A stretch of DNA of 64,000 nucleotides, from contig JAFYQF010000015.1 in the NCBI GenBank assembly GCA_017559905.1, positions 124,001 through 188,000 of the forward strand, given 5' to 3'. The stretch comes from a bacterium. GTDB lineage: Bacteria; Cyanobacteriota; Vampirovibrionia; Gastranaerophilales; Gastranaerophilaceae. Shown here in pieces: positions 20,678 through 24,018 of this stretch. The notes under the pieces are model-generated. The model did no database searches and was not told the origin of the DNA. It worked only from the letters and a program-made list of their open reading frames with translations. The position numbers were made by a program, and so were the translations under genes. Within the stretch, counting starts at the first letter, position 1. The number at the start of each line of letters is the position of its first letter.

Positions 20678-21994
20678 ATGAAGTGTTATAAATCGAAATG
20701 GATATTAACATCAGAAGGCGAAATTCTAGAAGATTACGCAATTGTTGTAGACGAGGGTAAGATTGTTAATATTTTGCCTAATAGCGAAGTTAAGTTTGAT
20801 GATGAAGAAAAAATCGTCAAAGAACTTGGTAATGCTGTTATTACGCCTGGGTTTATTGATTTGTTTACGCAATATCAATATACAGATGTGTCTTCTTCAA
20901 AACCAAAATGTGCTAAAAACAAAGTTAAGAAGTTTTTTCAAACTATTGCCAAAAATTACACTTTTGTTGGCGTAAAGTCTGACAATTATTCTTTGAAATG
21001 GGCAAATATTTTGAGTGATTATTTTGCAATGGATAGAAATGAAAAAATTTCTTCATTCAAAACTGGTATTATTGAATCAATAAAACAAGGAACGACTTGT
21101 ATTGCTCAAGTATCACGTGAATACAAATATTTTGATATTATTAACAAAGCTCCAATTAAGAATTATCTGTTCTTTGAAGTTTACGCTGATAGTTCTGATA
21201 AAAGTAAGAAAAAATTCAAAGATTTAAGAGCTAAAGTTGAGGATTTAATTTATCATAAAGGTGAAAATACTCATATCGGCATAATGTTGCATTCAATTTC
21301 TAGCGTGCACAAAAAATTATGGGAATTGTTCTCAAAATATTGTCGTAAACATAATATGATTGTTATGACAAGATTTGCTGAATCTCAAGATGAAATCGAA
21401 TGGATTAATTATGGATTTTCGGATATAGATTTGTTGCACAAGTTTATGGGATTTAGAAAAATCACTCCTTATGCGAAAGGTGTTTCGCCTGTTGAATACT
21501 TGAATAATTTGAAAGTGTTGTCTAAAAAAGTTGTTACAGCAAACGCCAATTATGCAACAGAAGATGAGTTAGCAGCTTTGGCTGAAACAGAAGTTAAATA
21601 TGTATATCAACCACTTTATTCTGAAGAAATATGTAATAAAAAACTTCCGTTTGAAACTGTGTTGAAATATTTTAAAGGTAATTTTGGATTTTCAACACAA
21701 AGTTTTAAAACTGAAAAGTCTTTCAGCTTGTTAAAGTTAGCAAATGAGGCTAACGCTGAAGCTAATTTGCCTATTGATGAATTGATTAAGTACCTAACAA
21801 TATACCCAGCAAAAATTTTAAGATTAGACAATACTACAGGGTCTATAAAAATAGGTAAGGATGCTGATTTCAATGTGTTTAAATTGCCAGAAGGTGCAGA
21901 TTATAATGCGTTGAAAGATTTGGTAACTCCCTACTCAACATATTCTAAAGGTAGAAAGCTTATTAAAGCTGGTAACGTAAGGTTTTCTCTATGA
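20678..21994 (+). CDS. Amidohydrolase-superfamily protein lacking metal ligands (probable pseudoenzyme)
   Basis: 438 residues, full length for the MtaD/SsnA/chlorohydrolase branch. The N-terminal beta domain (D-E-G-K-I-V-N-I, then V-I-T-P-G-F-I-D) and the C-terminal signature (Y-P-A-K-I-L, then T-G-S-I-K-I-G-K-D-A-D-F) are intact. Where active members have H-x-H after P-G-F-I-D, this protein reads L-F-T-Q-Y-Q-Y. The strand that normally carries H-x-H before A-E reads M-T-R-F-A-E. The later A-H site is A-N-A-N-Y, and the Asp of the T-D-G/S motif is replaced (F-S-T-Q-S). All metal positions therefore appear lost while the frame stays open. It overlaps yjbQ by 4 bases. Confidence 0.8.
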   Translation: MKCYKSKWILTSEGEILEDYAIVVDEGKIVNILPNSEVKFDDEEKIVKELGNAVITPGFIDLFTQYQYTDVSSSKPKCAKNKVKKFFQTIAKNYTFVGVKSDNYSLKWANILSDYFAMDRNEKISSFKTGIIESIKQGTTCIAQVSREYKYFDIINKAPIKNYLFFEVYADSSDKSKKKFKDLRAKVEDLIYHKGENTHIGIMLHSISSVHKKLWELFSKYCRKHNMIVMTRFAESQDEIEWINYGFSDIDLLHKFMGFRKITPYAKGVSPVEYLNNLKVLSKKVVTANANYATEDELAALAETEVKYVYQPLYSEEICNKKLPFETVLKYFKGNFGFSTQSFKTEKSFSLLKLANEANAEANLPIDELIKYLTIYPAKILRLDNTTGSIKIGKDADFNVFKLPEGADYNALKDLVTPYSTYSKGRKLIKAGNVRFSL

Positions 21995-22407
21995 CAATAA
22001 TTAATGAAAAATTCAGTGTTCACACGAAAGGTAATACTCATGTTATTGATGTTACTCGTCAGGTGCAGAATGCTGTTTACAGGCATAATTTGCAAAATGC
22101 TGTTGTGCATGTTTATGTCGCAGGGAGTACGGTTTCTATCACAAATATTGAGTATGAACCAGGTTTGTTGAAAGATTTGCCTGAAGCTTTAGATAAGTTC
22201 GCTCCAGTTGATAAAGAATACCATCATGATGAAACTTGGCATGATGGAAATGGGTATGCACATTTAAGAGCTTCTATTGTTGGAAATAGTACAATGGTTC
22301 CGTTAATGGATGGCGCTTTGGTTTTGGGTCAGTGGCAACAGATAGTTCTTATTGATTTTGACAACAAAGCTCGTACTAGAACCGTTTATGTTCAAATTGT
22401 TTATTAA
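21991..22407 (+). CDS. yjbQ: YjbQ family protein (UPF0047)
   Basis: 138 residues, family-typical. Conserved patterns are Y-H-H-D-E, W-H-D-G-N-G-Y-A-H-L-R-A near 84-95, P-L-M-D-G-A-L-V-L-G-Q-W-Q-Q-I near 103-118, and a C-terminal R-T-R-T-V-Y-V-Q. The His-rich pocket suggests metal or phosphate binding. Weak thiamine-phosphate synthase activity has been reported for the family, but the physiological role is unsettled. Its ATG overlaps the stop of the amidohydrolase-like gene (ATGA), so the two are translationally coupled. Confidence 0.93.
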   Translation: MTIINEKFSVHTKGNTHVIDVTRQVQNAVYRHNLQNAVVHVYVAGSTVSITNIEYEPGLLKDLPEALDKFAPVDKEYHHDETWHDGNGYAHLRASIVGNSTMVPLMDGALVLGQWQQIVLIDFDNKARTRTVYVQIVY

Positions 22408-22485: not shown

Positions 22486-24018
22486 ATGACAACAAATAAG
22501 AGAGTTTTACTTTGTATTATGGATGGTTGGGGAATTAGCAAATCTCATCCTGAATATGATGCAACAAAATTAGCAAATCCAGTTAATGTTGACCGTTTAC
22601 TTAAAGAAGAAAAATCAATCGCAATTCATGCAGAAGGTGAATATGTTGGACTTCCTGAAGGTCAAATGGGTAACAGTGAAGTTGGTCACTTGAACCTTGG
22701 TGCTGGTAGAATTGTATACCAAGAATTGTCAAAAATTAACAATGCAATCAAAAGTGGTGACTTCTTCCAAAGAAAAGCTTTTCTTGATGCTGTAAAACAC
22801 GTTAAAGAAAATGATAGTGCTTTGCATATCTATGGTTTGGCATCAGATGGTGGTGTTCACTCTGCATTAGGTCATATTTTAGCGTTAGTAAAATTGGCCG
22901 CGGATAATGGTTTGAAAAAAGTATATGTTCACGCATTTTTGGATGGTAGAGATACTCCTCCTCAAAGTGCAATGACTTTCTTGCAACCAATTGAAGACGA
23001 ATTGAAAAAATACGGTTTACCTCAAATCGCAACTGTTTCTGGTAGATATTATGCAATGGACAGAGATAATCGTTGGGATAGAGTTGAAAAAGCCTATAAC
23101 GCATTATTGTTAGGTGAAGGTGAAGTTGCATCTTCTGCAGATGAAGCTATTTCAAATTCTTATGCTAAAGGTGAAAATGATGAGTTCGTTTTACCAACAA
23201 TTATCGGTGGTGAAGAATCAAGAATTCATGACAACGATGCTGTGATTTTCTGGAACTTCCGTCCAGACCGTGCAAGAGAAATCACTAAAGCAGTAAACTT
23301 TGTTGATTTTGACGGCTTTGAAAGAAAAGCTGTTAGAAAAAATCTATTCTATGTTTGTATGACTCAATATGATGAAACATTTGAATATCCTGTTGCTTTC
23401 GGTAAAGAACGTATGGCAAATATCTTGGGCGACGTTTTAGAAGCAAATGGCGTGAAACAGTTCAGAACTGCTGAAACTGAAAAATATGCGCACGTAACTT
23501 TCTTCTTTAATGGTGGTGTTGAAGAACCTGCTGAACACGAAACAAGAGTACTTGTTGCATCTCCAAAAGTTGCGACTTACGATTTGCAACCTGAAATGAG
23601 TGCTAGAGAAGTTTGTGAAAAAGTACTTGAAGCAATTGAAGATACTCAATATGGTTTTATTTTGGTTAACTTTGCAAACCCTGACATGGTAGGTCATACA
23701 GGAATTATTGAAGCTGCAGTTAAGGCTGACAAAGTTGTTGACGAATGCGTTGGCAAAATTGCTGAAGCTTGCAAAGCAAATGATATTATTATGTTATTAA
23801 CTGCTGACCATGGTAATTCAGAAGTAATGGTAAACCCTGAAACTGGAAAACCAATGACAGCTCATACTACAAACGAAGTTCCGTTTGCATTGATTAATGC
23901 TCCTGCTAATGTTGAATTGAAAGAAAGCGGTGCATTATGTAATATTGCCCCTACAATCCTTGATTTAATGGGTATTGAAAAACCTGCTGAAATGGATTGT
24001 GAATCGTTAATTAAATAA
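22486..24018 (+). CDS. gpmI: 2,3-bisphosphoglycerate-independent phosphoglycerate mutase
   Basis: 510 residues. It interconverts 3- and 2-phosphoglycerate in glycolysis with two Mn ions. Visible features are M-D-G-W-G near residue 11 (metal Asp), the catalytic Ser in G-N-S-E-V-G-H-L near 64, H-A-F-L-D-G-R-D-T-P-P near 148, and the second metal cluster T-A-D-H-G-N-S-E near 440. It is a single-gene unit bounded by its own promoter and a terminator. Confidence 0.97.
   Translation: MTTNKRVLLCIMDGWGISKSHPEYDATKLANPVNVDRLLKEEKSIAIHAEGEYVGLPEGQMGNSEVGHLNLGAGRIVYQELSKINNAIKSGDFFQRKAFLDAVKHVKENDSALHIYGLASDGGVHSALGHILALVKLAADNGLKKVYVHAFLDGRDTPPQSAMTFLQPIEDELKKYGLPQIATVSGRYYAMDRDNRWDRVEKAYNALLLGEGEVASSADEAISNSYAKGENDEFVLPTIIGGEESRIHDNDAVIFWNFRPDRAREITKAVNFVDFDGFERKAVRKNLFYVCMTQYDETFEYPVAFGKERMANILGDVLEANGVKQFRTAETEKYAHVTFFFNGGVEEPAEHETRVLVASPKVATYDLQPEMSAREVCEKVLEAIEDTQYGFILVNFANPDMVGHTGIIEAAVKADKVVDECVGKIAEACKANDIIMLLTADHGNSEVMVNPETGKPMTAHTTNEVPFALINAPANVELKESGALCNIAPTILDLMGIEKPAEMDCESLIK

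Follow-up and report, generated by a model that had tools for sequence, protein, structure and literature searches.

Why does a gene whose product keeps the fold of a metal-dependent deaminase persist as an open frame when every metal ligand has been replaced? The question was raised by the original prediction for a 64,000-nucleotide stretch of a Gastranaerophilaceae genome (the window), which described a full-length member of the MtaD/SsnA branch. We addressed it computationally, through the fold, the ligand loss, the stepwise series of ligand states in relatives, pathway co-occurrence, purifying selection and a change of charge. In our reading, a deaminase of the menaquinone pathway probably outlived that pathway and, while its metal site disappeared step by step, was retained for a role other than the ancestral one, perhaps binding.

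Fold and metal site of the window protein

The features referred to throughout are as follows.
20678..21994, + strand: 438-aa protein of amidohydrolase fold, lacking the metal ligands (ATG start, no internal stop)
20864..20872, + strand: former H-x-H on beta-1, now F63-T64-Q65 (alignment; AF2 strand 59-61)
21194..21361, + strand: outer helices alpha-3/alpha-4 (residues 173-228), with most of the charge gain (invariance and charge analyses)
21371..21373, + strand: former beta-5 metal His, now Arg232, in the simplest order the first ligand lost in the series (alignment, tree)
21380..21382, + strand: Glu235, retained Glu of the HxxE motif (all sequences)
21542..21544, + strand: former beta-6 His, now Asn289 (alignment)
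21698..21700, + strand: former beta-8 Asp, now Gln341 (alignment)
21991..21994, + strand: ATGA overlap of the amidohydrolase stop and the yjbQ start (sequence)
21991..22407, + strand: YjbQ (UPF0047), 138 aa, downstream gene (profile match)
22486..24018, + strand: next gene, presumably the phosphoglycerate mutase GpmI (named from translation and recall)

The product matched PF01979 (Amidohydro_1) at E 6e-21 (75.5 bits, cut-off 25), and its AF2 model (pLDDT 94.0, pTM 0.93) was an amidohydrolase barrel with the small beta-sandwich beside it, the combination of (beta/alpha)8 barrel and sandwich that characterizes the superfamily. Foldseek matched this model to Zn deaminases, with 4f0r at the top (E 4.9e-28), and aligned it with the Helicobacter pylori aminofutalosine deaminase at TM 0.77/0.81. 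The open frame and intact scaffold that had been predicted were thereby borne out. Of the residues on which catalysis in the superfamily depends (H-x-H, beta-5 His, beta-6 His and beta-8 Asp), none was retained; the five metal-ligand positions read H63F, H65Q, H232R, H289N and D341Q in the family alignment, and the claim that every one of them is substituted held on alignment to intact relatives. We take these five columns to be the metal ligands of the superfamily, an assignment backed by their invariance in intact relatives. In the AF2 model they lie at or just past the ends of strands beta-1, 5, 6 and 8, and the strand order was identical in the model of an intact relative (pLDDT 92.4). Although at least one PF01979 protein occurred in each of 14 control genomes, the ligand-free protein was the only one found in the window's genome, which is 99.96% complete. 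Genes of this kind would read as metal-dependent hydrolases, a likely annotation error, while the sole PF01979 protein found in this genome has no metal ligands.

Placement in the MtaD/SsnA branch survived for the wider branch and fold but not when the branch is taken narrowly. Among NCBIfam models, the highest-ranking was that of aminofutalosine deaminase, PRK08418, at 103 bits (curated equivalog cut-off 320), whereas the SsnA model gave 26 bits against a cut-off of 444; the window protein thus combines a score below cut-off with a missing metal site. Of nine relatives scanned, eight also had PRK08418 as their top model and one had it in second place; the three intact proteins of f3 type among them scored 144-163 bits. 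The 320-bit cut-off of PRK08418 was reached by no family member scanned, the window protein included. For the AF2 model of an intact relative, the top TM-score was again that of H. pylori aminofutalosine deaminase (0.85/0.86, rmsd 2.8); by Foldseek E-value, MTA/SAH-type deaminases outranked it, as they did for the window protein.

Ligand states and menaquinone genes among relatives

Homologs were matched in 34 of 59 relatives and, within the window's family, in 121 of 383 genomes, from which two weak, partial matches (G111 and G246) were removed to give 119 full-length copies. Not one of the 119 had an intact metal site. With the residues at positions 63, 65, 232, 289 and 341 written in order, 50 copies were HHRYN, 64 [FLM]QRNQ, three FQRNE, one HHRHN and one DNENR. 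The same Q/R/N/Q set in 64/119 copies shows that relatives share the substitutions seen in the window and places the replacement of ligands beyond chance. Intact HHHHD sites were present in 13 sequences, all from other families of the Candidatus Gastranaerophilales/Melainabacteria order, and the two sequences of sister family f7 (HHCHD and HHSHD) lacked the beta-5 His alone. Glu235 was retained in 134/134 sequences. A search of viral contigs for relatives of the window protein returned none.

In a tree computed with IQ-TREE after removal of the ligand columns (83 of 87 rows, those of genus g54 being thinned), the intact HHHHD forms were basal, f7 was sister of the window's family (support 94/96), and the family itself was grouped at 100/100 and split into HHRHN/HHRYN (100/98) and FQRNE/DNENR/[FLM]QRNQ (96/95). 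The loss of ligands, predicted to be uniform, instead goes step by step across relatives, and the simplest order suggested by these sequences would be the beta-5 His, then the beta-8 Asp, the beta-6 His and the H-x-H pair. The single DNENR copy, at 292-1633 of locus L048 from a genome (G066) that is 63% complete, came to lack all the ligands by a path of its own; its placement is unsure because its branch is very long (2.36).

Given the affinity to PRK08418, we compared the ligand states with genes of the futalosine menaquinone pathway. MqnA (PF02621) was detected in 14/59 relatives, comprising 12 of the 13 intact-protein genomes together with G042 and G050, and in none of the 20 genomes carrying a decayed protein. 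MqnC-type matches (E 4e-74 or better) occurred in 13/13 and 0/20 of these genomes, respectively, the decayed-protein genomes returning background radical-SAM matches only; the MqnC cut-off was passed in 11/59 relatives. The one intact-protein genome without MqnA (G056, 80% complete) had a strong MqnC, and G050 encoded MqnA with no homolog of the window protein matched. Across the window's family, MqnA was found in 0/383 genomes, and the window's own genome had none; the aminofutalosine-deaminase-type protein and its pathway thus share a genome in 12 of 13 intact relatives and not in the window's genome. A Fisher test on this co-occurrence takes no account of shared descent, and the pattern reflects one or two evolutionary events rather than 33 independent points. 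In two f2 genomes, a PRK08418-type homolog overlaps mqnA. No mqn gene was recognized beside the intact gene in f3/f4, where most neighbors had no annotation; those named from sequence, which we take to be KdsA, dCMP deaminase and an M16 peptidase, gave no clear function. MenD was above its cut-off in 0/59 relatives. One genome of the window's genus (G007:C4:127561-128769) contains an open frame of 962 aa, part of which resembles MenD at 157 bits (cut-off 244), far above the background matches of its relatives.

These patterns probably reflect a history in which the ancestor was a metal-dependent aminofutalosine deaminase of the futalosine menaquinone pathway, with aminofutalosine as its presumed substrate. 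A gut-adapted lineage would then have lost that pathway, and the orphaned deaminase gene would have been mostly lost while being kept in part of the window's family. There the metal site would have vanished in steps, from the beta-5 His through the beta-8 Asp and beta-6 His to, lastly, the H-x-H, leaving what is now, judging by the lost site, a pseudoenzyme for metal-dependent deamination. Gastranaerophilales are described in PMC4040986 as obligate fermenters without respiration genes, a description that fits the absence of the menaquinone pathway.

Constraint, charge and gene neighborhood

Purifying selection on the amidohydrolase gene is strong. dN/dS was 0.011-0.092 in the 14 closest pairs, with a median of 0.16 over 104 pairs (dS <1.5), compared with medians of 0.087 over 152 YjbQ pairs and 0.052 over 31 GpmI pairs; hence the gene is constrained, yet less so than its neighbors. 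Among aligned rows we defined a QRNQ set (n=52) by the letters Q65, R232, N289 and Q341, each therefore present in 52/52; no other letter combination occurs in this clade, and so the replacements are fixed there. With the fold retained, the catalytic residues gone and selection purifying, the window protein has the hallmarks of a pseudoenzyme. To this extent the proposal of a pseudoenzyme kept for another function stands, and it is as a probable reading of sequence data (0/119 copies intact, low dN/dS in closest pairs, replacements fixed in the clade) that the other function should be taken. That the gene is instead decaying, its frame kept by chance, would agree with its dispensability, since 262/383 family genomes had no match and it is cleanly absent between obg and yjbQ in several of them. 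That account is scarcely credible given the dN/dS of the closest pairs and the long open frames of all 119 full-length copies, and at the level of the entire clade it is refuted, although it could hold for single genomes. A supposed relic of the gene in G311 proved on re-examination to be a chance match.

Charge changed along with the ligands. The intact group in the entropy, constraint, pI and per-element charge analyses comprised 10 of the 13 rows (without G036, G053 and G058). Mean pI was 6.55 in these 10 proteins and 8.98, 8.95, 9.13 and 8.87 in f7, HHRYN, FQRNE and QRNQ, respectively, and pI exceeded 8 in 118/119 family copies compared with 2/13 intact proteins, both of f3 g25. Lys or Arg occupied 12 of the 29 newly invariant positions in QRNQ, compared with 66/428 overall (p=4e-4), and 14/34 in HHRYN (p=8e-5). 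The gain lay mostly in helices 79-95, 173-195 and 212-228, with K177, R184, K194, K213, K220, R223 and K224 newly invariant on alpha-3/alpha-4. The change may have been gradual, because the intact f3 g25/g30 branch, which is closest to the decayed groups, has a near-neutral charge. Genome-wide composition was rejected as the cause since neighbor genes (f8 and genes <200 aa left out) show no such shift: their mean charge per 100 aa was -0.47 in f1+f7 (n=232) and +0.12 in f2+f3+f4 (n=58), whereas that of the amidohydrolase-fold proteins was +2.30 and -1.24, respectively.

Several readings place the present function in the old pocket. The protein might be a rebuilt enzyme that catalyzes a metal-independent reaction with Arg232, Gln65, Gln341, Asn289 and the retained Glu235, and this would agree with the fixed replacements, with the non-ligand pocket residues E235, S146, E148, H211 and S342, invariant across the 52 QRNQ sequences, and with the fixed switches C311Q, S314Y and G339S. 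Mean entropy nevertheless makes such an enzyme unlikely. The pocket rim was more conserved than the opposite barrel end in the intact group (0.64 vs 1.16), a contrast that persisted in HHRYN (0.34 vs 0.70) and was gone in QRNQ (0.56 vs 0.59); constraint was lost over stretches that include residues 62-71, 311-316 and 341-354 and gained over others, including 194-199, 220-224 and 257-261. The strongly conserved rim of HHRYN, including H205 and the CPR motif, would suit a sensor that has kept its binding of the former nucleoside-type ligand and no longer converts it. We hold this distinctly improbable for the window's clade, which retains only 15 of the 32 non-ligand rim positions conserved in the intact enzyme, compared with 48/84 elsewhere, and in which H205 is often Asn. 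A metal site relocated to residues such as D61, E148, D171 and E235 would make use of the acidic D61 and D171, fixed in 52/52 where the intact group mostly has Asn, but with no new His in the rim, and H211 common to intact relatives, we regard it as very improbable.

A further reading makes the protein a dedicated partner or chaperone of YjbQ, the two being produced together by coupled translation as the original prediction had it. The operon overlap is conserved: yjbQ lay directly downstream in 47 of 52 loci, 45 of them with the 4-nt ATGA overlap. Directly upstream of the pair (20678..22407) the window has a divergent mnmA, where most relatives with the pair have obg; because the pair is intact there without the upstream obg, the two genes seem to have moved together. 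Obligate partnership did not hold up, however. There was no nearby yjbQ in five of the 52 loci, GpmI following the amidohydrolase gene directly in five relatives without yjbQ, and YjbQ was present in 21/22 selected genomes without the amidohydrolase, many of whose yjbQ loci have obg directly before the gene. Each gene thus survives without the other, and no yjbQ was seen next to the amidohydrolase gene in the HHRYN, FQRNE or intact-group loci retrieved, which renders a dedicated partnership distinctly doubtful. In intact f3 g33 and HHRYN g42 genomes alike, the gene immediately upstream of the amidohydrolase gene is dCMP-deaminase-like (L149 4466-4982, with equivalents in L095, L096, L055, L057, L062 and L066), possibly the ancestral arrangement.

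The basic shift and the invariant Lys and Arg on the outer helices suggest that the protein binds a polyanion or else an acidic partner. We tentatively propose that a new basic face, formed by alpha-3/alpha-4 and the 79-95 helix, carries the present role in place of chemistry in the old pocket, and this proposal has somewhat less than an even chance of being right. The narrower version, in which loss of the pathway was followed by conversion of the deaminase into a protein that binds RNA, ribosomes or another polyanion, is rather unlikely. As the basic face is already seen in the sister family with one ligand lost, a binding role may precede full loss of the metal site and, if real, may even have driven it.

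Comparison with other amidohydrolases

Aminofutalosine deaminase (MqnF, PRK08418; 7lkj/7lkk from H. pylori and 3v7p, Nis_0429, from Nitratiruptor) shares the fold of the window protein, has the closest family model, and belongs to the pathway whose MqnA and MqnC co-occur with intact relatives. Unlike that enzyme, the window protein is basic, scores far below cut-off, and is without the five ligands and the pathway. MtaD, SsnA and the ATZ/TRZ deaminases belong to the same wider branch and fold, including the top Foldseek match, and differ in having the metal site as well as by the SsnA score.

Pseudoenzymes are already known in this superfamily. The CRMP/DPYSL proteins, animal dihydropyrimidinase-like proteins, act by binding. 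They are amidohydrolase-superfamily pseudoenzymes whose metal ligands were lost, and a His-to-Arg difference near the pocket is described there too (PMC4051505). They differ from the window protein in being eukaryotic members of the dihydropyrimidinase branch, in the two of six ligands that CRMP-4 retains, and in having an active paralog, whereas no second PF01979 protein was found in the window's genome. In Pseudomonas aeruginosa, the ATCase has a pseudo-dihydroorotase, described as an inactive bacterial amidohydrolase kept as a necessary subunit (PMC7053772); it is part of a known enzyme, whereas the window protein has no known partner and its ancestral pathway is gone. With both cases established, the kind is not new. 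What sets the present case apart is the branch, the lack of any other PF01979 protein in the genome, the survival of intermediate states and the connection with a pathway that was lost. Titles and the openings of abstracts in the openly available literature gave no amidohydrolase pseudoenzyme in this lineage, a statement on those texts and not a claim of absence from print.

Pseudoenzymes are usually viewed as end points beside an active paralog. Here, within one gene family and one order, living genomes hold intact proteins as well as proteins short of one, of three or of all ligands, in a series tied to the disappearance of a particular pathway and to a turn from acidic to basic. With these living intermediates, a handful of natural proteins would suffice, once expressed, to test in which order the events took place.

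The remaining PF01979 proteins of two f3 genomes (G047 and G043) were clearly assigned to other models. An f4 genome carries, besides its intact family member, a 5'-deoxyadenosine deaminase above cut-off (564 bits; L281, G038 C72, 236-1630), and four f3/f4 genomes (L277, L280, L284 and L287) encode cytosine-deaminase-like proteins of the uncharacterized family PRK06886 (468-490 bits).
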